A stretch of DNA of 45,509 bases from Candidatus Zixiibacteriota bacterium (GTDB taxonomy: Bacteria > Zixibacteria > MSB-5A5 > GN15 > FEB-12). The notes beneath the pieces are model-generated. The model saw only the letters and a program-made list of their open reading frames with translations. It searched no databases and was not told the DNA's origin. Where the stretch lies: assembly GCA_020348905.1 (NCBI GenBank), contig CP070756.1, forward strand, positions 1,987,736 to 2,033,244, written 5' to 3'. Positions 1-11,998 of the stretch are shown here, piece after piece (within the stretch, counting starts at the first letter, position 1; each line of letters starts with the position of its first letter). A program made the translations under genes and the position numbers.

Positions 1-1514
1 GATTCAGATGAATCATCCGCTCCGCCTGGTTGATACATAAGCCACCTGTCTGCTCCGCCTAACCTGATAGCCTGTATTACAACACAACCCCTGAGAGCGC
101 CGTCCGTGTCGAGAACCATTGAGTCACCTTCATGCGACACAGCGGTTAACTCTCCGCAGATAATGCTGCCCGATTTCAGATTCGCTTCGGTCGATGAATC
201 ACTAATGCGATCTAAGACAAAGCGGCATCCTCTGTTGAAGCGTGGCAAGTTGAACTGCTTGACGACGTATTTTTTGACCGCCTTGTCATGGCAAAACTCT
301 AAGACTGCATCGGAGTTAGCTTCCGAAAGCAAGATTCGGTAATAGCCACAACCCGCGCCTGATTTGTCATCCGGTCGATAACGATAACCCTGATCCCGGT
401 AAAATCGCGTCTTCAGCGGCCAAATTCGAACGCCATGTTTTGTCATCAATCGCCTGGCACATTCGATGAGATCCGTCGCCGTGCAGCACTCGTGCCGAAT
501 CAAGCCGATACCCGTACCAGCAGGTAACTTCTCGAGATGCTGGTCGTCGCCTGTCGGAGATGGAAAGAGTTTCAGTTCTAACCGCGTGACCGCACTGCCG
601 CGACCGGCGAGATGTTTTGTCAGTTGCTCCTCACCGCAGCGCTCCTTACCCCGATACCCGATCAGTTGGCCATAGACGTCGTCAAATGCCGGCAGTTCCC
701 CCACGTTTAGACGCTCAACCACCCGGGAGTCGATAACCTCTCCGTTGATGTTCACCAATTCCAATCCGCCGTCCTCGACGCTGGCCAGTACCGGTACCGA
801 TTCATAGAAGGGTACAACGAGAAAAGTCGTGTCAAGCGCCAGCTCGGCAGGGCTGGCAATAACAATTTCCCCCGGTCCATTGCCGCTGTCGTTGGGTGCT
901 TTTTCGATCAGCTCCTTTGACATCGAAGTGTCGGCCACCGCGCCCCGGTAGACCATTGAGGTTTCGAGCACGCGATCTATTTGCCGGTAGTTGAAATGGC
1001 ACTCCCGCTGCTCGCCCCCGACCTGATACTTTTCAAAGGGTTCATGCCGGCAACGGCGGATATCCTTACCGCAAATGGAACACTCGGGCAAGTGGTAGGT
1101 GAAGCCGATGGAGCATTCCTTGTAAATCCCACCGTCGATATTGTCCAGCAGATCGTCTGCCCCTTTCGCTGAGCGCAACCAGTAGAAGTAACTCTTGACC
1201 CAGCTCTTCCCTTCACGCGCTACTATTTCGGCATAGAATGTCCTGGCCACCGGTAGACGGTCCTTGCGATGTCCGACCATCACCGGTGAGTCGACCAGGA
1301 GCTCGGTCAATCGCTGAAGTTCATCTGAGGGAAACCTGCCGCCGAAGCTGTTAACCTGGTCCGATACGATATACATCGCGCGGATATAAATGTCGTTTTC
1401 GGTCACCGTAGAAGGTGGGTTAACATTTTCATTGATTAGCCCGACCAATTCAGTTAGCCGGTCAACCGCCGGCTCCGCTAACCGGGCCTTGATTCTGCCT
1501 AAACTGGCGTCCAT
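1..1514 (-). CDS. Prohead-protease-like phage head protein with long C-terminal extension (partial, runs off left edge)
   Basis: The minus-strand frame opens at an ATG (1512-1514) behind a GGAGGT ribosome site and stays open to base 1, giving at least 504 residues; the 3' end is outside the window. Residues about 40-200 resemble HK97-type prohead maturation proteases. A GHRK segment carries a candidate catalytic His82, and a CSIGF segment carries candidate Ser135. These are followed by a zinc-knuckle-like CSICGKDIRRCRH (Cys145, Cys148, Cys155, His157) and an ETSMVYRGAV segment, both typical of such phage proteases. In that family the enzyme trims scaffold and capsid during head assembly. Residues about 200-504 match nothing I recognise, and usual prohead proteases are only about 200 residues. 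It lies downstream, on the same strand, of portal and terminase genes at 4709-7314. The family call is by motif memory and the catalytic pair is unproven. Confidence 0.6.
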   Translation of the reverse strand, partial: MDASLGRIKARLAEPAVDRLTELVGLINENVNPPSTVTENDIYIRAMYIVSDQVNSFGGRFPSDELQRLTELLVDSPVMVGHRKDRLPVARTFYAEIVAREGKSWVKSYFYWLRSAKGADDLLDNIDGGIYKECSIGFTYHLPECSICGKDIRRCRHEPFEKYQVGGEQRECHFNYRQIDRVLETSMVYRGAVADTSMSKELIEKAPNDSGNGPGEIVIASPAELALDTTFLVVPFYESVPVLASVEDGGLELVNINGEVIDSRVVERLNVGELPAFDDVYGQLIGYRGKERCGEEQLTKHLAGRGSAVTRLELKLFPSPTGDDQHLEKLPAGTGIGLIRHECCTATDLIECARRLMTKHGVRIWPLKTRFYRDQGYRYRPDDKSGAGCGYYRILLSEANSDAVLEFCHDKAVKKYVVKQFNLPRFNRGCRFVLDRISDSSTEANLKSGSIICGELTAVSHEGDSMVLDTDGALRGCVVIQAIRLGGADRWLMYQPGGADDSSE

Positions 1515-1758
1515 TTTACCTCCGTTCTGTTGCCTTTTACCAACTGGTCGGGGGTAGAATTCACCTCAGGTTTTCCTTCGAATTTGCGCAAAATGTTGCT
1601 GGATTTTGTAGCTGCCACAGCTGCTCAAAAGCTGCGCTGGCGAGCCCTATCTTGCCGTACCACAAATACTTAGGGTTTGCCGGAAGAGCCTGCCTGTATG
1701 CGGCACAACCTTTGCTTTTTGGGCAGTGGAATTGACACTAAGAAAAGGATGTGATCGA

Positions 1759-1884
1759 ATGACTATTATAAGAAAGAAGATGACCCGCAGATTGTCGCTG
1801 GTGACCAAGCTTGTGGTTTTTATCATTGTATTTGTTCTGGCCATGACCATCACATTTTCCGATGTCTACGGAGCAACTTTCTAA
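1759..1884 (+). CDS. Small membrane or secreted peptide, 41 aa
   Basis: An ATG sits 6-10 bases behind a purine-rich AGAAAAGGA ribosome site. The 41 codons encode a basic N-terminus (RKKMTRR), one hydrophobic stretch (about residues 18-33, LVVFIIVFVLAMTITF) and a short tail ending FSDVYGATF. This is either a single-pass membrane peptide or an unusually short exported one. It has its own flanking sequence and a good terminator about 130 bases downstream, which argues for a real transcription unit. No known small-protein family was recognised. The opposite strand also has an open frame here, but it has no comparable ribosome site. Confidence 0.45.
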   Translation: MTIIRKKMTRRLSLVTKLVVFIIVFVLAMTITFSDVYGATF

Positions 1885-2018
1885 ACCACCGGCGATCATC
1901 CTTTGGGAATACGAAGCACATCATCCGCGGTTCTGATATAGAATGTGGTTATTCGGTGGTGAGGGTGCCGGTACGGCATAATAAAGCGGCCGGCACAACC
2001 AGAGAAAGCCCATCTCTT

Positions 2019-2058
2019 AAAGCGCCCTCTGAAACTCCTCCCTCAGTGGGCGCTTTTT
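2019..2058 (+). terminator. Rho-independent terminator after the 41-aa peptide gene
   Basis: AAAGCGCCC (2019-2027) pairs with GGGCGCTTT (2048-2056). An inner CTGA/TCAG pair (2029-2032 with 2043-2046) extends the stem, and a T-run follows. The interval 1885-2018 between the peptide gene and this hairpin has no open frame that I can support. Confidence 0.7.
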
Positions 2059-2128
2059 ATTGCAGGCCGTTGACCGTCTCACCCCTGTTGACCAGGAAAT
2101 GTGAACCGTGCATTATTCAAGATATTAG

Positions 2129-2776
2129 ATGAGAATCGAGATTATGCCAGCAAGATTCTATCACAGAACCCGTCTTGTCCATTTCATAGCAGCCGTTGTC
2201 GTATTGACATTACTCTTTACAATCTGGCTCTCGTTCTATCGCTTTACTTTGCTCGTAGCAGTACCGTCGCTGCTATTGGGGTACTGGCTTGGCAGTATCG
2301 ATTGGAGACGGCAGGAGCGAAGAATCGATAAGCGCAACGGACTCATCCTCTACTTCAGCGACTCCTACGCCTATTTCGTGCTCGTCATGCTTTACCTGTT
2401 CACGCTGCCGGGCGGGAGGTCCTTCGTAGGTCGCACTCTCAGCGCAAGCCCCTGGGTATTTCCGGTCCTGACATGGTTTACCGCCGCCGTAGCATCCGGT
2501 TATAATCTGGCTTTCTATATCGGAGTTCGAAGATTTGAGTCCGAGCGCGGTCCCCTCAGGGTCAAGAGGTTTTATGCTCGAAGTGCCGTCGGAGCCGAAT
2601 CGCTAATCGGCAAAACCGGAACCGTTCAGCAGGACTGCGATCCGAACGGAACAGTCAAGATCGAAAACGCTATCTGGAGCGCGGAGTCAATTGACGGCAG
2701 CGCTCTGACGGCCGGCAGCAGAGTGGTTGTGAAAGATATCGAAGGGCTAAAAGTTTTTGTCGAACTGATACCGTAG
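2129..2776 (+). CDS. NfeD-like membrane protein
   Basis: The protein has 215 residues. Four hydrophobic segments (about residues 15-34, 36-53, 80-95 and 107-131) precede a soluble C-terminal domain of about 65 residues. That domain runs from LIGKTGTVQQD through VKIENAIWSAE and GSRVVVKDIEG to the end, and matches the OB-fold of NfeD proteins, where the pattern is LIGxxGxA, then a VxIxGExW-like strand, then GxxVxVxxVxG. NfeD proteins work with stomatin/SPFH proteins or membrane serine proteases in membrane-microdomain upkeep. No such partner is next to it here. An alternative start is Met6 (2144). It stands alone, converging on the chagasin-like gene with a small hairpin between. The NfeD domain call is fairly sure; its partner and role are not. 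Confidence 0.65.
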   Translation: MRIEIMPARFYHRTRLVHFIAAVVVLTLLFTIWLSFYRFTLLVAVPSLLLGYWLGSIDWRRQERRIDKRNGLILYFSDSYAYFVLVMLYLFTLPGGRSFVGRTLSASPWVFPVLTWFTAAVASGYNLAFYIGVRRFESERGPLRVKRFYARSAVGAESLIGKTGTVQQDCDPNGTVKIENAIWSAESIDGSALTAGSRVVVKDIEGLKVFVELIP

Positions 2777-2787
2777 CCGCACTAAAG

Positions 2788-2810
2788 ATAACCGCCGGTT
2801 ATTACTTTTT
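2788..2810. terminator. Weak bidirectional terminator between convergent genes
   Basis: ATAACCG (2788-2794) and CGGTTAT (2796-2802) form a short hairpin followed by five T's on the plus strand, with A-rich sequence on the other side. It separates the NfeD-like gene from the convergent inhibitor gene and overlaps the latter's stop codon. Confidence 0.4.
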
Positions 2811-3203
2811 GATCTCCACAAAGAAGTCTACCGTTCGATCAACCGAGGTTGAATCCCAGGGCTGCAGATAACGAAGCGAAATGGTAGTCGTATCTTCTCT
2901 CAGCGGCTCAAACAGCCAATGATGGTGTCCTCCGCGACCCATGAGCTTTTTCGGGTTGGGCATGGGTTCATGTTTACTCTCTACCAGTTTCAGCAGGGTG
3001 GAATCGACCTCACCCACGAACTGCCAGCTGTACCCGGTGGTCGGGTTGGCTTCCAGCACAATTGTGAACTGTTCGCCGATGGCTACCCTAATCGTATCGG
3101 ATGGATCAGAGTATGCTCTGGGATCGGCACTCTCACCACTACAGGCTATGGTTATCACACAGACAAATGTCAGAATATAGCTGAGGCCGGTGGCACGTTT
3201 CAT
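2802..3203 (-). CDS. Chagasin/ICP-family (I42) peptidase inhibitor lipoprotein
   Basis: The start is the internal ATG at 3201-3203 rather than one ten codons upstream, because it gives a clean lipoprotein signal (MKRATGL..., lipobox ITIAC). The mature part carries the inhibitor loops of the chagasin family. NPTTGYSW is the L2-type loop, GRGGHHHWLFEP fits the glycine/histidine-containing L4 region, and LRYLQPWD fits the L6 RPW-like loop. These inhibitors block papain-like cysteine peptidases, and a lipid-anchored copy would act in the periplasm or at the surface. At 133 residues including the signal it fits the family. It sits alone on the minus strand between a membrane-protein gene and a glycosyltransferase gene. 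No cysteine peptidase is visible nearby, so the target is unknown. Confidence 0.75.
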   Translation of the reverse strand: MKRATGLSYILTFVCVITIACSGESADPRAYSDPSDTIRVAIGEQFTIVLEANPTTGYSWQFVGEVDSTLLKLVESKHEPMPNPKKLMGRGGHHHWLFEPLREDTTTISLRYLQPWDSTSVDRTVDFFVEIKK

Positions 3204-3271
3204 TAACGTTCTCCCGTAACAGTTTAACCGCACATCGAGTTCTCTTTATAAGATAACAGCGGTAACCCAAC

Positions 3272-4705
3272 GTGACAAGCAAATACACCGCCGGGTTGAA
3301 ACCGGTCAGAACGGGTATTCAAACATTGACAATGCCTATCGCATTTCTGAAATTCGCTGCAGTGATTCGCCGGTTCCTAACAAAGCTCAGGGTTGGACCC
3401 CGAAGGTATTATATTGTCATTTTCGTTTCGGCTCTGACCGCCCGGTTCATCTGGTTTGCGCTGGTACTCAACCAGGTTGATGCGGAACAGCTTGGCTACG
3501 AGTCACGTGATTCCGATATCACATCATATTTTATTTCTGCTGATGCCATCGGTTCGGATTTCGATTTTAGCACCAGCGGCGTCTACATTTTCGGACCCGG
3601 ATACCCGTCTCTTCTGGCGCTAATCGGCTCCCTGGCCGGATCCGATCCCCGCGTTTTGATAGTGATTCAGATTGTAATTAGTTCCATCGCTGCCGTGCTA
3701 CTGGCCGTTCTAGCCATGAAACTTACCTCTGATACTCGTATCGCCTTGATAGCCGGTATGCTGAACGCCCTGTCGGTTCTCTCTATCGCCCTGGCCAATA
3801 CTCTATTTTCTGACACCCTTTTCTTCATCCTCGTCTTAGCGGGCATTCTGACGTATCTATCATCCATTGAGCGAAATAAAATCTGGCTCAGCTTACTGAG
3901 CGGCCTTCTTCTGAGCGCAGCAGCGTTCACCAAGTCCATGGGCCAGTTCCTGATCATAATCCTCGTGCTCATGACTGCTCTCAAAAACCCGATACCCGGT
4001 GTCGGGCGCACCCGGATGTTTGTCAGACGTCTGAGGCTTCTGGTTCCAGCCGTGCTAGTAGTAACGTTAGCCACTATCGCCTGGACCGTAAGAAACAGCC
4101 ACGTTTATGACGTTCCGTATCTGGCGGGGGCCGCGCCCGAAGGGATGGCCAAAGTCAGCCTGATGATCCAATCCAGCGTCGAGGGTGCATCATTCGACGA
4201 GCGGTTGCAGGCCGTGCGGGCCGAAGTGGAGCAGCGTGAGGATGCTACGGGTCGGGGCGAGCAGGTCTATCTCGACTACGCTCGGGCTCTTCCAAATTTG
4301 GTCTGGCAACACCCGCTCACCGCGGCTCGGGTGTTCTTGCGGAATGTGGTCGTTAACACGAACACCGGCTGGGGGGTAGTCCACGTAAACCTGCCGCGAT
4401 GGGAAAAACCTTACTACCGGTTAACCTGCTTTCTCAACAAAACCGGTCTTAGTTTTCGCGTAACGATACTCGCCATAATCGGTTGTGTAATGCTGTTTCG
4501 GGCCAGGCGCTATTCGTTGGCGGTAATGTTACTTTCGATCTATGCTTACTTCGCTTTTTTCTCTGGATTCAGCACGTATCAGGGCATACGGATTTTCTAC
4601 GCCGGTCAAATCGCGTGGACAATGTTGGCTGCTTACCCCTTACTGTCCGCCTGCCAGGCTTTACAAGACTATCGGTCAAAGCGCAAACAACGCAGCCAAA
4701 CCTAG
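3272..4705 (+). CDS. GT-C fold integral membrane glycosyltransferase (ArnT/PMT-like)
   Basis: This is a multi-pass membrane protein of up to 477 residues with about 10 hydrophobic segments beginning near residue 46. An acidic luminal loop (ESRDSDITSYFISADAI) follows the first transmembrane segment. It precedes a GPGYPSLLALIGSL segment that matches the GT39/GT83 pattern of an acidic residue, then Tyr/Ala, then a Pro-rich helix start. Such enzymes move a sugar from a polyprenyl-phosphate donor to a lipid or protein on the outer face of the inner membrane. The 3272 start is GTG; an ATG at 3332 is a good alternative, and neither has a strong ribosome site. It ends only 3 bases from the convergent terminase gene, so host and phage-like genes abut. 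The acceptor is unknown. Confidence 0.6.
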   Translation: MTSKYTAGLKPVRTGIQTLTMPIAFLKFAAVIRRFLTKLRVGPRRYYIVIFVSALTARFIWFALVLNQVDAEQLGYESRDSDITSYFISADAIGSDFDFSTSGVYIFGPGYPSLLALIGSLAGSDPRVLIVIQIVISSIAAVLLAVLAMKLTSDTRIALIAGMLNALSVLSIALANTLFSDTLFFILVLAGILTYLSSIERNKIWLSLLSGLLLSAAAFTKSMGQFLIIILVLMTALKNPIPGVGRTRMFVRRLRLLVPAVLVVTLATIAWTVRNSHVYDVPYLAGAAPEGMAKVSLMIQSSVEGASFDERLQAVRAEVEQREDATGRGEQVYLDYARALPNLVWQHPLTAARVFLRNVVVNTNTGWGVVHVNLPRWEKPYYRLTCFLNKTGLSFRVTILAIIGCVMLFRARRYSLAVMLLSIYAYFAFFSGFSTYQGIRIFYAGQIAWTMLAAYPLLSACQALQDYRSKRKQRSQT

Positions 4706-4708
4706 CGG

Positions 4709-6037
4709 CTACACTCGGCCGACGCGCGGATTCAGGGGCGGCCTGGACCTTCCTTTAAGCGGCCACACGGCCAAAGCCAGCGCCATAAGAGCATCGCAAT
4801 CATTGTTGTCATCCCACCGGGCGCGGCGAAGTTCATCTTCCAGCGACCAGATCTTTCCCGGATCGTCAGGGATATGCCACGGCTGATAGAAAATCAGTTC
4901 CCTCGCATGGAGTAACTCCAGATGAGTCAGCAGTTCGGCCTTGGTTTTCTGGGTGAATATTATTGAAATCGGGTTGTATGATGACAGCTGTTCTACCACA
5001 ACATCACCCAGCCCGGTGGCGTCAAGAACCAATTGGCCCGGATACCGTTGCTGTCTTTGCTTTATCTTCTCGATAACGACGTTCCAATCAAAGCGCTTGA
5101 ACCGTCCCAACTCCACCACCCGCGCTTTTCCCCGAGCAACCTGCACCGTTACACCTACCGTTGCCGTCTGTTTGCGGGCCAGGTCCCAACCACTGACAAA
5201 CATTGTTTGGCCCATGGTGTCGAACCATGAAGCTGACTTTTCAAAGCCGCTCAATGCTCTGTCAACATAATCTCCCCTTAAAATCTCCCCTCCGCAATCA
5301 ACAAACTGTCCCATGATATTCTGCTTTACCCGCCGTTCAGAGAAACTCTCGACACGCTCATGTAGGGCTGCCGAGGATATGAAACGGTTTTCGCGGCTGT
5401 CCCCCGACTGGAAGTAGCCCGGCCTCTTACCTTCCCTAATCTCCCGCACCCTCAGATAAAACCAGTTCTTACCGTTGGGTGTTGAAACCAGATCCAGTCT
5501 TCCCTCGCGGTCGGCGAGTCTCATCCGAATAACTTCTTCGACCACGTACTCCGGGTCGGTTTCGAAGGCCACTTCATCAAATATAAACAGGTCATAGTCG
5601 TTACCCAGAAGATACTCCCCTCTGTTCTGTGTCGTGCGGGCTTCGATCACAGCACCATTGAAGAAGGTCAGTCGTGGATAGGGAGTGCGAGTGATGACCT
5701 GAATCAGCGGCTCGACATGCGGCGATTGACGAGCCAACCGTACCACGTGATTGAAGATTATATTGGCCTGGTCCTGGGTGATCGAGGCCGTGACGATCCG
5801 GTAGCGCCCGCTGCTGTCGTACTGTAGCTTTCGAATCCGGTATATGGCGTTGTGCAGTATCTTTATAGCACAGACAAACGACTTGCCCCACCTGTTACCT
5901 GTGACAAGGGCGTTTTCCTGACTCACGGAACCCTCGAGCCATCGCCGCTGGCCGTCGTGAAGCTCCAGTCCCAGAACTGCTTTGGCGAAATAAGCAGGCT
6001 CCAGTAGCCCCCTTCGCCAGTCTATTTCAGGCGTCAC
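4709..6037 (-). CDS. terL: Phage-type terminase large subunit
   Basis: The 442-residue protein has both domains of a DNA-packaging motor. In the ATPase part, Walker A is GNRWGKS (residues 47-53), Walker B is LFIFDEVAF (Asp153, Glu154), and VSTPNGKN is the coupling motif (about 183-190). In the RNase-H-like nuclease part, acidic residues lie in SGWDLAR (Asp284), LVLDATGLGD (Asp338) and WDDNNDCDALMALA (Asp408-414). These suggest that ATP hydrolysis and DNA cleavage are both intact. In phages and gene transfer agents it pumps DNA through the portal into the head. It follows the portal gene by 5 bases, the reverse of the usual terminase-then-portal order. No small terminase subunit or tail gene is visible in the window. 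A full-length, motif-complete gene argues against simple decay. Confidence 0.9.
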   Translation of the reverse strand: MTPEIDWRRGLLEPAYFAKAVLGLELHDGQRRWLEGSVSQENALVTGNRWGKSFVCAIKILHNAIYRIRKLQYDSSGRYRIVTASITQDQANIIFNHVVRLARQSPHVEPLIQVITRTPYPRLTFFNGAVIEARTTQNRGEYLLGNDYDLFIFDEVAFETDPEYVVEEVIRMRLADREGRLDLVSTPNGKNWFYLRVREIREGKRPGYFQSGDSRENRFISSAALHERVESFSERRVKQNIMGQFVDCGGEILRGDYVDRALSGFEKSASWFDTMGQTMFVSGWDLARKQTATVGVTVQVARGKARVVELGRFKRFDWNVVIEKIKQRQQRYPGQLVLDATGLGDVVVEQLSSYNPISIIFTQKTKAELLTHLELLHARELIFYQPWHIPDDPGKIWSLEDELRRARWDDNNDCDALMALALAVWPLKGRSRPPLNPRVGRV

Positions 6038-6042
6038 GCCGA

Positions 6043-7314
6043 TTATATCAACTTTCGGGCCACTTCGCGCGCCGATGATCTGTCAATCAAACCGGCCTGG
6101 TACAGCTTGAGCAGACTATCAACCCGGGTTGACTCTACCCTGGCTCTCTCGTCGGCCTGGTAGGCAAAGTTGTTATCAAACTTGAAACGGCAGCGTCGGT
6201 CAAACCCTGCCAGGGCCAATTCTATATTTCCGATCCATTCTAAGAAAGCGGCCACCTGAGACTGCACCGATTTCACCTGCCGCATCACCAGATCGAACTT
6301 AAATGACGACCAGGTGGTCGTGGCGCCATAAGAATAGCCCAAAAGAAAAGGCGCCAAATTGGTACCGGCACAGATCTCTTCGATCATGCCGCGATGGTTC
6401 ACAAACCAGCTGTTAGTGACCGCCCGAACATTGTCGGGACCCACATATTCGATACTCACGTTGTCCCAGGTAACGGGATTTTCATCAACCTGACATGATT
6501 TAATCATCGAAACGGTGGAATCGAAGTAGCCGTTAATGCGATCAACGTAGGCTTCGTCCGCCTCACCAGCCATCCGCTCCGGCGGCGTGACTTTGACGTG
6601 GAGGCGATGATACCCGGAATTGTGGCTCGAACGCCGCATATCATCCACCAGTTGCTGTTCGATATAAGCCACAAAAGGTACCGCCTGCAGGATAGACTTA
6701 CCCAGAGGACGGCAGGTATCACCGTTCATAGGAATGTAGTAGAAATCGCTGCGGTTCAGATCAAGGCGACCGTCGTCCAGTTCAAGGCTCAGGCGATGGC
6801 GGTTATTCTCTGTCGTAACTGACAGATCCGCCGCGTCAACCGATATGAAATCGTCGACCCCGCTTCCGTCCTTCTTGACGACCACGAAGCCTCCATAAAC
6901 TCCATCGCGAAACAAGCCCGTGAACAGGTCCGTCAAGAATGTCACCAGGCTGCCCGGGTTACCGCGTGAACCGTGGTACAAACGCTTCGACAAATCCGCC
7001 AGGCACTTTAATGCCCGCTTCTCGTCGCGGGTTCCAGTTGTCTCTTCAAAATAGAAGTCTCCCGGAGCCGAACTCAGCCTGGCCCAGGTCGACACACAGG
7101 CACTGACAACAGGCAGGTTATCAGCGAGAAAGCGATACAGGCCGACCCGATGCCGACCTGATGAGATATCGCGTGAGCCGCACCGTAAAACACGACTGAG
7201 TTGTGTGACCGTAAGTAGAGACTTCTCGGTTTCGGGTTTTACACTCGTTGCCACTTTGAGGCTGTCCGGGATGGGCAGGGTTGGAACCGATTTCCTTCCA
7301 AATAAGAATGCCAT
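6043..7314 (-). CDS. Phage portal protein
   Basis: The start is the ATG at 7312-7314 because AAGGAGG lies 5 bases upstream; the frame extends 36 codons further but those have no ribosome site. The 423-residue product has the layout of HK97-type portals. A LPVVSACVSTWARLSSAPGDF segment near residue 75-95 corresponds to the conserved portal entry region. A mid-protein FYYIPMNGDTCRPLGKSILQA segment leads into a long helical region, and a TTTWSSFKFDLVMRQVKSVQSQVAAFLE helix lies near residue 330-360. Portals form the dodecameric ring through which terminase packs DNA. It is the first gene of the minus-strand pair with the terminase. It faces away from a host TPR lipoprotein gene 164 bases off, and that spacer holds nothing further that I can name. 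Confidence 0.8.
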   Translation of the reverse strand: MAFLFGRKSVPTLPIPDSLKVATSVKPETEKSLLTVTQLSRVLRCGSRDISSGRHRVGLYRFLADNLPVVSACVSTWARLSSAPGDFYFEETTGTRDEKRALKCLADLSKRLYHGSRGNPGSLVTFLTDLFTGLFRDGVYGGFVVVKKDGSGVDDFISVDAADLSVTTENNRHRLSLELDDGRLDLNRSDFYYIPMNGDTCRPLGKSILQAVPFVAYIEQQLVDDMRRSSHNSGYHRLHVKVTPPERMAGEADEAYVDRINGYFDSTVSMIKSCQVDENPVTWDNVSIEYVGPDNVRAVTNSWFVNHRGMIEEICAGTNLAPFLLGYSYGATTTWSSFKFDLVMRQVKSVQSQVAAFLEWIGNIELALAGFDRRCRFKFDNNFAYQADERARVESTRVDSLLKLYQAGLIDRSSAREVARKLI

Positions 7315-7478
7315 GGATCCTCCTTTTTCCCATCCGGATGGCCATACAATTAGAGGAAAACTTGTAGCGTTATTGTCAAACAGGAGGTTCCAGGCAAATT
7401 TGGCCTTGAATACCCCCGGCAAATAACCTATATTCCCAAAACTGTTTGCGACTCAAATCAGTATCCAGTTCTACAGAT

Positions 7479-8990
7479 ATGAAAGAGAATGTTTCAGCAG
7501 CCATAATCGTACTGGCGGTTTCTCTATTTGGCCTGGAATCCTGTTCGGATAGCACACCCATAGAAGTTCGCTATGAAGCCGAGAAAATGCTCTATCAGGC
7601 GGAAAGGTCTCTGGCAGAGGCGAGAAGAAGCCAATCAGGGCAACTATCTCTCTATCAAGCGGATCAGCTGTGCCCTCAGTTTCGTAACTGTATCGACTTC
7701 TGTTATGAAAGCCTCGACAAGGTCGATCCTCAGACCTACCCCACTGAGTACCAACAACTTGTAAGCGTCGCTCATCGCTGTTCCATGCAGTTGGCAGGTT
7801 TGTTTTTCTCGGTAAACCGGTTCGACAGTTCAATCGCCACTATCAACAGGCTCTTGCTGGAATTCAGGCTGGACGCCGGGCAACAGATAGCGGCCAGCCT
7901 GGATCTCGCTCAGGCTCTTCACGCTGGAGGTAAATGGGACAGCGCCCTGGCCGTCTATGACGCCACAGTCTCGCGGTTTTACCCCCCTGTCAGCGCCGGC
8001 GGCGAGCCGATTGTTGCGTTGTTGGGCGTACCGGCCCACGTTTTCCGGGTGGTAACTGCCACCGGCAACTCGACCGCAGCATCCGGAGCTCTCGCCGCTG
8101 CCGAAGGTTACTATACCCGGCTGACCAGGGAATTCCCGAACTCCAAAGTGTCAGCAGTAGCACACTTTACCCTGGCAGATCTTTATGGCAGCAACAAACT
8201 CTGGGAGAAAGAACTCGAGCAACTACGAGCCATATCGGATACTTCATATCCCGGGCATCGAGACATATTGATGAGGATGGCCGACGTTCATCGCCTCGGA
8301 TTGCGTCAGTATGACACAGCCCTTGCGATATATGACTACCTAATGAATACCTCTACGCCCGATGATTCCGGCAGGGCTCCCGAAATCCTGTTCAGAATCA
8401 GCTTGACCAGAATGGACCAGAACCGATATCGGGAGGCCAGAAATCTCCTCAATACGATAAAGAAGGAATATCCGATGTTTTTCGATTCGCTACCCACACC
8501 TCAATACACTCTGGCACGTTCGCTGGAATTGGAGGGCAACTGGGAGAGAGCGGAGACAGAATACAGTCTATTAATAGAGAAGTTTCGCGATTCCGACGAA
8601 GCTATGATGGCCTTGCTATATATGGTCGACAATCTGCGCGCTAAAGGCAGGACGGTTGAATCCGAGCAATGGCACCGGCGGGCCCAGGCCTATTTCGACG
8701 AGGCCGCCAGCCGATACCCCGGAACACCCGTACATGCCAAGGCTCTTTTTTACAAGGCCGACCTGTTCCGCCGCAGCAGCCAATATGAGCGTTCGGTCCA
8801 GGTTCTCCTTTCGCTTTACGAAAAATTTCCAGGCTCAGAGCCGGGTCGCAGGGCCTTGATGGCGGCCGCCAGGATGTATCGAGAGCAGCTTAACAACCCG
8901 GGCAGGGCGGATTCCCTGCTTATGCTGGCGAAATCCAGTATCTCAACTGCTATTCCGACACTTGAAAACCCGGATCTTTCAGCCGATTAA
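7479..8990 (+). CDS. TPR-repeat lipoprotein
   Basis: The start is the ATG at 7479, which places a lipoprotein signal at the N-terminus (MKENVSAAIIVLAVSLFG, lipobox LESC, Cys22). A TTG 33 bases earlier would bury it. The mature 480 residues are helical and rich in tetratricopeptide-like pairs. Examples are AAEGYYTRLTREFPNSKVSAVAHFTLADLY, YDTALAIYDYLM, RYREARNLLNTIKKEYP, WERAETEYSLLIEKF and YERSVQVLLSLYEKFPGSEPGRRALMAAAR, the last with the YbgF/BamD-style FPxS spacing. Such proteins scaffold complexes at the outer or inner membrane. A small secreted-protein gene follows by 39 bases and probably shares the transcript. Specific function unknown. Confidence 0.7.
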   Translation: MKENVSAAIIVLAVSLFGLESCSDSTPIEVRYEAEKMLYQAERSLAEARRSQSGQLSLYQADQLCPQFRNCIDFCYESLDKVDPQTYPTEYQQLVSVAHRCSMQLAGLFFSVNRFDSSIATINRLLLEFRLDAGQQIAASLDLAQALHAGGKWDSALAVYDATVSRFYPPVSAGGEPIVALLGVPAHVFRVVTATGNSTAASGALAAAEGYYTRLTREFPNSKVSAVAHFTLADLYGSNKLWEKELEQLRAISDTSYPGHRDILMRMADVHRLGLRQYDTALAIYDYLMNTSTPDDSGRAPEILFRISLTRMDQNRYREARNLLNTIKKEYPMFFDSLPTPQYTLARSLELEGNWERAETEYSLLIEKFRDSDEAMMALLYMVDNLRAKGRTVESEQWHRRAQAYFDEAASRYPGTPVHAKALFYKADLFRRSSQYERSVQVLLSLYEKFPGSEPGRRALMAAARMYREQLNNPGRADSLLMLAKSSISTAIPTLENPDLSAD

Positions 8991-9029: not shown

Positions 9030-9602
9030 ATGATATCAGCGCTAAAGAAGACATGCCACCTGGTTTTACTGTTGTCGCTACCAACCCTGGTGCTGGCGCA
9101 AACGGATAATTTCGGCGTACTGGATACGGTCTACGCCGATGTAGCCAAGATCGACGATAATAACTGGACCGTGACGGTATCATATGTCAACGACCAGAAG
9201 GTGGTTGGTCTATCGATACCCTTGAAACTGGACGCCGGGGATATTGCGGTTGTGGCCGATTCCGCCGTTTACCTTGGAGGTCGAACAGAGATGTTCACCT
9301 ACAAAGGCTTTCGTCCCGATACGGCCGTTCAGTCCGTGACCATGGGATTGATCGCCAACCTTGGCCCGACTGACTACTCCCTGCTGCCGGGAAGAGGACG
9401 AATCGTTACGGTGTTCGTCTCGTCACTGGACGGTCAGCCGATTGAACATCTTGACGTCGACACGACCACCACCCATCCGCAGAACAGTCTCATGGTGGTC
9501 GCCGACCGGTTTCAGGGAGGAGACAACCCGGACACCATCCCGATGCAGAACCGACGCATCCTTCAGATCCGCCCGGCCTGGGTGGTGAGATACTCTCAAT
9601 AG
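9030..9602 (+). CDS. Small secreted protein of unknown function
   Basis: ATG follows GGAGG by 6 bases. Residues 1-23 form a Sec signal peptide (basic start, LVLLLSLPTLVLA, cleavage before QTDN). The mature 167 residues are predicted beta-rich, with WTVTVSYVNDQKVVGLSIPLKL, a GGRTEMFTYKGFRPD segment and a GRGRIVTVFVSSLDG strand. This pattern resembles cohesin-like or other extracellular beta-sandwiches common in FCB bacteria. There are no cysteines in the mature part and no lipobox. It probably forms a two-gene unit with the preceding TPR lipoprotein, ending at a strong terminator. Cohesin-like is a guess from the strand pattern. Confidence 0.55.
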   Translation: MISALKKTCHLVLLLSLPTLVLAQTDNFGVLDTVYADVAKIDDNNWTVTVSYVNDQKVVGLSIPLKLDAGDIAVVADSAVYLGGRTEMFTYKGFRPDTAVQSVTMGLIANLGPTDYSLLPGRGRIVTVFVSSLDGQPIEHLDVDTTTTHPQNSLMVVADRFQGGDNPDTIPMQNRRILQIRPAWVVRYSQ

Positions 9603-9680: not shown

Positions 9681-10934
9681 TCAGGAGTCGTTCGAGGATT
9701 CCTCGCCGGCAGGATCCGTCTCGGCATTGAGCTTTGCCGTAACCCGCGATCTCTCCACCTCAACCACGAATTCCTTCAGTTGATTCAGAATATCATCGGG
9801 AAGTCGTTTCTTCTGATAAACCTCCTTCATGAGACCCCTGGCGTCGAGGGAGAAGTATTCATCGAGCTGCAGCTTGCGGCAAAGGGCGGAAAGTTGGGCA
9901 AAAGCTTTCTGATCCCGTGTCTTTGAGATGAACTCATCTTTGCGCGATACACTTACGGTGACTTTACCCGAATCTCCATCGAAGCGCGACAGGTCGTGGT
10001 CCCTGGCGATGTTCAGCAGCTTTTCCTTGATACCATCCAGCTCCGCGTCAATGCGTTTGCTGTCTGAGTACACTCTGAGGTATTCGTCGGCCAGTTCCTT
10101 CAACTGAAGGGCACTTATTTCCCCCGTGTCGCCGGACTGCTCTTCTTCTTCCAGCATCCGGCGGTGAATTTTGGCCGGGCACAAGTGATGGTAACTGCAG
10201 TAAGTGCAGTGACTTCCCTCCTGCGCCGGGAAATCATCCTTGCGAGTGGACTCGATCGTATCGTTTACATCAAGTCGCAGCTGCTCGGCAAGCATATCCA
10301 GTTCGTCCGGGCGAAGGCGATGGCTGACAATCTCATCTTTTCGCAGAAGATACTGCGCCAAATCAACCGATTCGTATTGCGGAAAGTTCGCTTGAACCGC
10401 TAACTGATAAAGCCCCATTTGATACACAAACCTTCGATCGTGCGGCAAAATCGTGCTCTGTCCGGTCTTGTAATCACATATCTCGACCGTGCCGTCATCT
10501 TTTTTCCACAGTCGATCGATATAGCTTTTGAATTTGAACGGCGTGCCCGGCAGTTGAAAAGTCAGGTGCATCTCGGCTCCAAGCAGGGTCCCCTGATCGA
10601 AAGGTTGATAATGCTCGTAATGCCTTACCAGCATTTCCTTTCCGATTCGAATATAATCGTCGATTGTATAGTAATCGGAGGGTGACGTTATTGAATTTCG
10701 GTCGAGCTTTTGCCACTCTTCCAGATATGCCTCAATAGCCCTGTCCATCGGCATCAAAATGCCGTCCGCCCCCAGAGTATACAGTTTTCGCAGCACGCGA
10801 TGTACCGCGTTACCGAGGTAAGTATCAGCCGTTACCTTCGGCGGGATCGGTACTCTGTCGACATAGGCATACTTGAACTTACGCGGGCATACCCGATAGG
10901 TATCTAACGAGCTGAAGCTATAGCTTGACAGCAT
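9681..10934 (-). CDS. RecB-family PD-(D/E)XK nuclease with Cas4/AddB-type Fe-S cysteines
   Basis: The start is the ATG at 10932-10934, which shares one base with the stop of the upstream glycosyltransferase gene (TGATG), giving 417 residues. The N-terminus has FSSLDTYRVCPRKFKYAY with one cysteine. The nuclease core is YIDRLWKKDDGTVEICDYKTG, the PD-(D/E)XK signature with Asp and Lys, followed by a motif-IV-like QMGLYQLA helix. HCTYCSYHHLCP supplies three further cysteines. One early plus three late cysteines is the Fe-S arrangement of AddB, Cas4 and related exonucleases. The C-terminal 150 residues are helical and charged, probably coiled coil, and are not part of the usual domain. A role in DNA repair or end processing is likely. 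There is no helicase, cas1 or cas2 nearby, so CRISPR adaptation is not supported. Confidence 0.8.
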   Translation of the reverse strand: MLSSYSFSSLDTYRVCPRKFKYAYVDRVPIPPKVTADTYLGNAVHRVLRKLYTLGADGILMPMDRAIEAYLEEWQKLDRNSITSPSDYYTIDDYIRIGKEMLVRHYEHYQPFDQGTLLGAEMHLTFQLPGTPFKFKSYIDRLWKKDDGTVEICDYKTGQSTILPHDRRFVYQMGLYQLAVQANFPQYESVDLAQYLLRKDEIVSHRLRPDELDMLAEQLRLDVNDTIESTRKDDFPAQEGSHCTYCSYHHLCPAKIHRRMLEEEEQSGDTGEISALQLKELADEYLRVYSDSKRIDAELDGIKEKLLNIARDHDLSRFDGDSGKVTVSVSRKDEFISKTRDQKAFAQLSALCRKLQLDEYFSLDARGLMKEVYQKKRLPDDILNQLKEFVVEVERSRVTAKLNAETDPAGEESSNDS

Positions 10935-11998
10935 CACGGACCTCCGGTCAATCCCTGAGAACCGCTCGGTCGCTTTGGTAACATCTCGCGGGCAAGCGCC
11001 TTGAGGACACCCAGACCCATACCGAAATGAATGGCGGGAAATATGACCGGACCGTATAGCAGGCAACCAAGGCGCTTCTCTCTTAGGTAAAGAACCAGCG
11101 AGTAGCCGATCACCACCAGCACGTAGAAGGCCAGGATGGTCCTGAATACCTCAAAGAAAGGCCTGGAAATCAGCGACAGCAGAAGCATCAGACACAAACC
11201 GATGATACTCACCGCGGCGAACCACTGCAGCGGCGAGAAAATGTTGTGCTTGGCGGCAAACTTGTAACGGCCCATGCCGATTCGATTCATGTGGTGCCAC
11301 AACTGCTGGATGGTGCTGCGCGGGTATAAGAACACCTTCAGCTTTGGTGATATGTACGACTTGAGGCCCTGAACCTTCACGCGGTGATTGAAATCAACAT
11401 CATTGCAGATGTCAAATTCCTCATCAAACATACCGACTTTTTCGAACACCTCACGCCGGTACACAGCTCCCGACGACGTAGGATCGGTCACTCCTTCAAA
11501 ATCCGAGTAAGCCACCGAACCCGGGTCATGACCCAGAAACGAACCACGACAGACCGCTATGGCGCGCTCGAACTCGTTGATGTCAGGAGGAGTCAACGGA
11601 CGGGGACGACACAAACAGTCGGCTTCGGAGGATTCGAAAATAGCCACTATATCGGACAGAAAATTCTTGCTCGGTATGTAGGTACGACCGTTAAGAAACA
11701 GAATATACGACGCACTGGAGTTCTTGATTCCGACGTTTTTTCCGGCTGAGGCGAAACGCCTGGGATTGTCAAGCACTTTGAGCGAACCGAACCTGTTTTT
11801 GTACGATTCAGCTACCTGCCGCGTGTCATCATCAGAACCGCCATCGACCACAACCACTTCCAGCGCGTCCATGGGGTAGTCCTGCAGATACACCTGGTCG
11901 AGCGTCTGGCCGAGATACCTGCCCTCGTTCCTGACCGGAATCACTACACAGAGCTGGTACTTTGGTTTACCACCTGCCACCACGGGTTTCCTGCTCAC
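10934..11998 (-). CDS. Membrane-anchored family 2 glycosyltransferase
   Basis: Starts at GTG (11996-11998). Its 354 residues open with the GT2 signature CVVIPVRNEGRYLGQTLDQV, then VVVVDGGSDDDT, and the acidic pair lies in the DVDFNHRVKVQG region. A cluster of transmembrane helices (about residues 240-325) anchors it to the inner membrane. This matches ExoA/succinoglycan-type processive or chain-adding transferases that use UDP- or GDP-sugars for polysaccharide or glycolipid synthesis. FLNGRTYIPS stands where DxD is often seen, so the metal-binding motif is divergent. The gene follows a GT4 gene by 104 bases and is coupled to the nuclease gene by a one-base overlap. Sugar and acceptor unknown. 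Confidence 0.8.
   Translation of the reverse strand: MSRKPVVAGGKPKYQLCVVIPVRNEGRYLGQTLDQVYLQDYPMDALEVVVVDGGSDDDTRQVAESYKNRFGSLKVLDNPRRFASAGKNVGIKNSSASYILFLNGRTYIPSKNFLSDIVAIFESSEADCLCRPRPLTPPDINEFERAIAVCRGSFLGHDPGSVAYSDFEGVTDPTSSGAVYRREVFEKVGMFDEEFDICNDVDFNHRVKVQGLKSYISPKLKVFLYPRSTIQQLWHHMNRIGMGRYKFAAKHNIFSPLQWFAAVSIIGLCLMLLLSLISRPFFEVFRTILAFYVLVVIGYSLVLYLREKRLGCLLYGPVIFPAIHFGMGLGVLKALAREMLPKRPSGSQGLTGGP

Follow-up and report, generated by a model that had tools for sequence, protein, structure and literature searches.

The window analysed in this study is the whole stretch of 45,509 nucleotides (G000:C1:1987736-2033244), taken from a single-record genome of 3.27 Mb with a completeness of 80.65%. 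The genes that concern us lie in it as follows.

3..1514, minus strand: prohead-protease-like protein, with H82, S135 and the Cys/His knuckle kept and the 3' end cut by a gap
1759..1884, plus strand: s8, a small hydrophobic peptide of 41 aa, on the opposite strand between terminase and protease
2129..2776, plus strand: NfeD-domain membrane protein, a host-type insert (Pfam PF01957, E 2e-16)
2802..3233, minus strand: I42 chagasin-type protease inhibitor lipoprotein (Pfam PF09394, E 3e-23)
3272..4705, plus strand: GT-C / PMT_2-like glycosyltransferase, a host-type insert (PF13231 just under cut-off)
4709..6037, minus strand: large terminase TerL, 442 aa (Pfam PF03237, Terminase_6N, above cut-off; PHROG_2 terminase, E 2e-29)
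6043..7314, minus strand: portal protein, 423 aa (PHROG portal families, E 2e-16 and 2.5e-10)
7446..8990, plus strand: TPR lipoprotein, host neighbour upstream of the portal (TPR families; same position in 26 loci)
9030..9602, plus strand: h3, a secreted protein and conserved host neighbour (28 loci)
9681..11066, minus strand: PD-(D/E)XK nuclease, conserved host neighbour (25 loci; Pfam PDDEXK_1 in the L008 homologue)

The first-pass annotation of this DNA had reported intact portal, terminase and prohead-protease-like genes among host genes, and this description was borne out by the Pfam and PHROG matches and by relatives of the protease-like reading frame in 41 of the 53 terminase-bearing loci that make up our set of relatives, most of which are labelled Zixiibacteriota or carry the older name GN15. 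The terminases of nearly all 53 loci are 42-76% identical to that of the window. Three loci labelled Thermoplasmata (L012), Calditrichaeota (L031) and Ignavibacterium (L040) have terminases 58-69% identical to the window's, and these are likely mislabelled or mixed bins. The portal start as called fits the relatives, with an N-terminus of M-x-F-x-x-K. The full terminase motif set that had also been claimed was confirmed, as the ATPase residues (Walker A G47-S53, Walker B D154/E155) and the nuclease residues (D285, D339 and D415) are at least 97% conserved among 63 relatives. In the protease, H82, S135 and the knuckle residues C145, C148, C155 and H157 are conserved among 87 relatives, those of a second phylum included; for both proteins we presume the roles of these residues from what is generally known of such enzymes. 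A reading frame of 705 aa considered for the protease was discarded because it runs through N.

Among the relatives, the usual gene order is portal, TerL, s8 (on the opposite strand), protease, g10, g13, g9, capsid, beta-propeller protein, adaptor, g19, g17 and g16, with one variable gene between g17 and g16 and at times an oppositely oriented lipoprotein gene after the protease, the whole cluster measuring about 13 kb. The conserved host genes upstream comprise two glycosyltransferases, the PD-(D/E)XK nuclease, h3 and the TPR protein, and the same host neighbours stand beside the cluster in many species. Several families have their portal and TerL genes, as a pair, at a distance from the capsid block. 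In nearly all species g16 ends the cluster (for example L107:17866-18723 and L104:6937-7749); most of its members carry a Sec-type signal, and it is possibly a receptor or surface factor.

The interval between terminase and protease is prone to insertion, with an extra ORF in 17 of 25 loci, and most intervals of the capsid block have extra ORFs in 0-2 of about 26-39 loci each. A tblastn search found relatives of s8, 40-71% identical, in about 17 loci, mostly in this very interval; the full-length ones, which are spread over the phylum, carry PEP-CTERM and the 41-aa peptide corresponds to their N-terminal signal-like part, and we regard it as a truncated s8 in the source genome. The I42 inhibitor is found between terminase and protease in this genus only (L005/L105, L008/L107 and L123). 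A mis-assembly at 1515-4708, raised in the first-pass annotation, is spoken against by s8 and the inhibitor, which occupy the same place in relatives, whereas the NfeD and GT-C genes have no match at this interval in the other fetched loci and their junctions lack such backing.

The source record is a pseudo-chromosome in which runs of 100 N join contigs. One run spans genome positions 1987636-1987735, and base 1 of the window is the first base after it; homology of the protease reaches to about 13 residues short of this gap, with only about the last 13 residues absent. A search of the source genome with the adaptor matched a second contig end and thereby exposed the gap: the 3' part of the cluster lies at a second 100-N run near genome position 1232224, 0.76 Mb off, from which onward come the adaptor (from residue 119), g19, g17, g21 and g16. 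Compared with L107 of the same genus, about 4.2 kb is absent between the two contig ends, corresponding to g10, g13, g9, capsid, propeller and adaptor residues 1-118, and a search of the source genome itself gave no match to either capsid or propeller. Since both contig ends stop within the cluster, the missing capsid of the source genome is an assembly artefact and not biology. A gap also interrupts the capsid gene of G026, another species of this genus, where the contigs on either side have an exact overlap of 141 bases. Gene spacing across the 100-N runs of the source record is non-biological.

The capsid protein, of HK97 type, has its PHROG matches among major head proteins (E 3e-61); against solved structures its sequence gave only a chance match. 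Structural alignment of the adaptor model (mean pLDDT 86) recovers adaptor and neck proteins of phages, with Z scores of 9.4 for T4 gp13, about 8 for SU10 and Moo19, 6.9 for RcGTA (6toa), 6.4 for T7 gp11 and 5.1 for LME-1, of which only the top few exceed the level that the tool rates as common; an Ig-like segment of the adaptor has, in addition, a match to a tail tube protein that stays under that family's cut-off. For the propeller (mean pLDDT 91 for the model), structural matches comprise sialidases, lectins, the portal-tail complex of phage LME-1 (E 4e-12) and a viral protein like P22 gp10 (E 1e-7), the likeness to sialidases and lectins being at least as good as that to phage nozzles. The first-pass annotation had expected capsid and tail genes to the left of the window; in relatives the protease is indeed followed by capsid, adaptor and a possible nozzle, but no canonical tail genes were recognised: the cluster genes with a family match included neither tape measure nor tube, sheath or baseplate, and several genes match no family. 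Small terminase, holin and endolysin were not identified in Zixibacteria. No integrase or replication gene was recognised among the classified genes, and in the one relative whose flanking genes were classified, these are of host types.

With reference to the phylum as a whole, the capsid gene was detected in 111 of 132 genomes (73 of the 78 good ones), TerL in 115 of 132, two of these matches (G029 and G104) being weak or short, and the portal in 112 of 132, in comparison with 125 of 132 for rpoB as benchmark. All three are almost always single copy. Capsid, TerL and portal are all absent from eight of the 132 genomes, including G055, which is 98% complete and in which the absence is likely a real loss; a near-complete genome without all three genes indicates that the packaging system is dispensable. 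Only two genomes (L014/G057 and G041) have one internal stop codon in TerL, reflecting decay or sequencing error. Distances in the cluster genes follow those of rpoB, with Mantel r values of 0.89 for capsid, 0.87 for portal and 0.86 for TerL, 0.73-0.89 for most core genes, and 0.44 for the protease. In maximum-likelihood trees of 40 taxa, the cluster and rpoB share 26 of 37 splits, 20 of them supported in both, and the conflicts are few and of modest support. The GC content of the core genes tracks that of the host's rpoB (r 0.97) over a range of 35 to 70%. Median dN/dS values for TerL, portal, protease, capsid, propeller and adaptor are 0.10-0.18, with a maximum of 0.36 or less, and close pairs gave at most 0.12 for TerL, 0.06-0.16 for the portal and at most 0.35 for the capsid; these values are based on pairs with dS <1, many of which share sequences. 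An all-pairs estimate with dS up to 2 was set aside because saturation makes its values unreliable. The cluster is maintained, vertically inherited and under purifying selection across Zixibacteria. That its genes are maintained and not decaying, as the first-pass annotation had proposed, follows from their near-universal single-copy occurrence, dN/dS of about 0.1, kept catalytic residues and congruence with rpoB.

Outside Zixibacteria, capsid matches were noticed in eight genomes of a mixed set of 386. Sampling centred on two of these eight disclosed the capsid in 34 of 39 genomes of one further phylum, and sampling centred on a third disclosed it in 46 of 68 genomes of another. Both phyla (L246-L265 and L266-L285) possess homologous capsid, portal, protease and adaptor, the capsid being single copy in most genomes, and in loci of both the cluster genes are interspersed with genes on the opposite strand. 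For the first, profiles indicate homology of capsid, g9, adaptor, portal and protease at 99-100% probability; its TerL gave no profile match to the window-type TerL, and its Q3, considered as a counterpart of g19, was rejected, being alike in length and position but not matching in profile. An Amidase_2 gene follows the cluster in one family of this phylum. The other has a holin-like match (E 9e-5) and matches to tail proteins. Contigs from a viral collection (L058 and L203-L206) carry cluster genes among opposite-strand genes and look like pieces of bacterial chromosome. We put forward tentatively, at somewhat below even odds, that the capsid-portal-protease system is near-core and vertically inherited in at least three phyla; it would then rank among the most ancient and most widely conserved systems of GTA type, its particle in Zixibacteria being reduced and short-tailed.

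Kogay et al. (2022) define a gene transfer agent (GTA) as derived from a caudoviricete, fully endogenised, often in several loci, and inherited mostly vertically with host co-diversification; it packs mostly random host DNA, its own genome is not fully packageable, and it delivers the DNA to cells (PMC9662315). In Zixibacteria, caudoviricete derivation is seen in the matches of terminase, portal and major head protein to PHROGs and in the adaptor fold; endogenisation is seen in the chromosomal position of the cluster in the inspected loci, with separate portal-TerL and capsid modules in some families; and vertical inheritance is seen in the Mantel correlations and the splits common with rpoB. 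Because these modules lie apart, their joint packaging in some families is unlikely. We consider, with a probability of about 0.68, that this is a host-domesticated, vertically inherited, phage-derived packaging and capsid cluster, most likely a GTA. The terminase and portal would load DNA into a protease-matured HK97 head, which the adaptor and beta-propeller protein would seal as a short, podovirus-like nozzle; the cargo would most likely be mostly host DNA, and the particle would serve as a gene transfer agent, freed by the lysis of a few cells. From sequence and models, the particle is probably a podovirus-like GTA: the adaptor and propeller models fit neck and nozzle, though the propeller is compatible with lectins and sialidases too. 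Zixibacteria thus probably make virus-like particles and perhaps use them for swapping DNA, the packing of host DNA and its transfer from cell to cell being what we infer from the genes. A GTA or another domesticated packaging machine, as the first-pass annotation had suggested, appears the best reading in view of maintenance and vertical descent.

Some of the same features would also suit a domesticated capsid machine with another job, such as a DNA-filled killing particle, DNA release in biofilms, or a compartment used for storage or as a decoy. In its favour, canonical tail genes were not recognised, the fold of the propeller protein is lectin-like, and nearly all species have a Sec-secreted g16 after the cluster. 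We regard it as rather unlikely, since the strictly kept nuclease and ATPase sites of the terminase point to DNA packaging, and portal and adaptor serve DNA exit and would be needless in a closed compartment. An encapsulin-like protein compartment would explain why a shell protein of HK97 fold has been retained as a core gene; it is highly improbable, however, as portal, terminase, protease and adaptor are kept alongside the shell and the best matches of the capsid are phage major head proteins, and encapsulins are not known to have a portal, terminase, protease or adaptor.

It might be argued that every core protein is phage-derived and that distant homologues occur in viral contigs, so that related temperate prophages may have integrated widely at a preferred site. 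A full prophage with an integrase, the outcome against which the first-pass annotation had set its reading, was seen on neither side of the cluster in the inspected loci. Near-universal single copies congruent with rpoB, in place of a horizontal and patchy distribution, classified flanking genes without integrase or replication gene, host genes interspersed in both orientations, a GC content in full agreement with that of each host and a cluster of only about 13 kb largely refute this explanation and leave it very unlikely. A decaying prophage remnant could be read from the capsid genes not found in the source genome and from the TerL stops in two genomes, but the former coincides with two scaffold gaps and the G026 capsid is split at a gap with its exact 141-base contig overlap; with dN/dS of about 0.1, purifying selection refutes decay for the phylum as a whole, and we give it scarcely any credence.

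We found no paper that links Zixibacteria with a GTA, capsid or prophage, in a search that stopped short of most subscription journals and all bioRxiv preprints, and the phylum-wide packaging cluster is undescribed in the literature searched. Known GTAs are few and mostly from Alphaproteobacteria, and here a capsid gene is nearly as frequent as rpoB across an uncultured phylum, with relatives common in two more phyla. If our reading is true, capsid-borne DNA exchange or another capsid function would be an ancient and routine trait of these lineages, which would also account for some chromosomal contigs being filed as viruses.

Comparatively, RcGTA and the other alphaproteobacterial GTAs resemble the Zixibacterial cluster in being a vertically inherited head and packaging cluster of about 13-15 kb, of caudoviricete origin and with host co-diversification, and RcGTA shares the neck adaptor fold. 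The Zixibacterial cluster differs in phylum and capsid family, in having no recognised siphovirus tail genes (several cluster genes matching no family), and in the host genes between its core genes, with portal-TerL and capsid modules apart in several families; synteny with a known GTA was not found. FpGTA of Faecalibacterium (PMC12946183), with TerL, portal, scaffold and capsid in about 10 kb, is a GTA-like element of podovirus type outside Alphaproteobacteria and similar to the Zixibacterial cluster by description; it was described from one gut genus, in contrast to the phylum-wide Zixibacterial cluster. The head-neck modules of podoviruses (P22, T7 and LME-1) offer a possible parallel in their portal, their adaptor and a beta-propeller protein of about 470 aa that forms a hub or nozzle, and chains of the LME-1 portal-tail complex are matched by both the adaptor and the propeller models; unlike these phages, the Zixibacterial cluster is chromosomal and vertical, and no needle, tailspike, replication or lysogeny genes were seen in it. 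Gut phages with a PHROG_3922-like major head protein (MT835508 and others) have a capsid of the same family, with 31-35% identity over about 90% of the length, whereas the Zixibacterial capsids belong to a chromosomal single-copy set.
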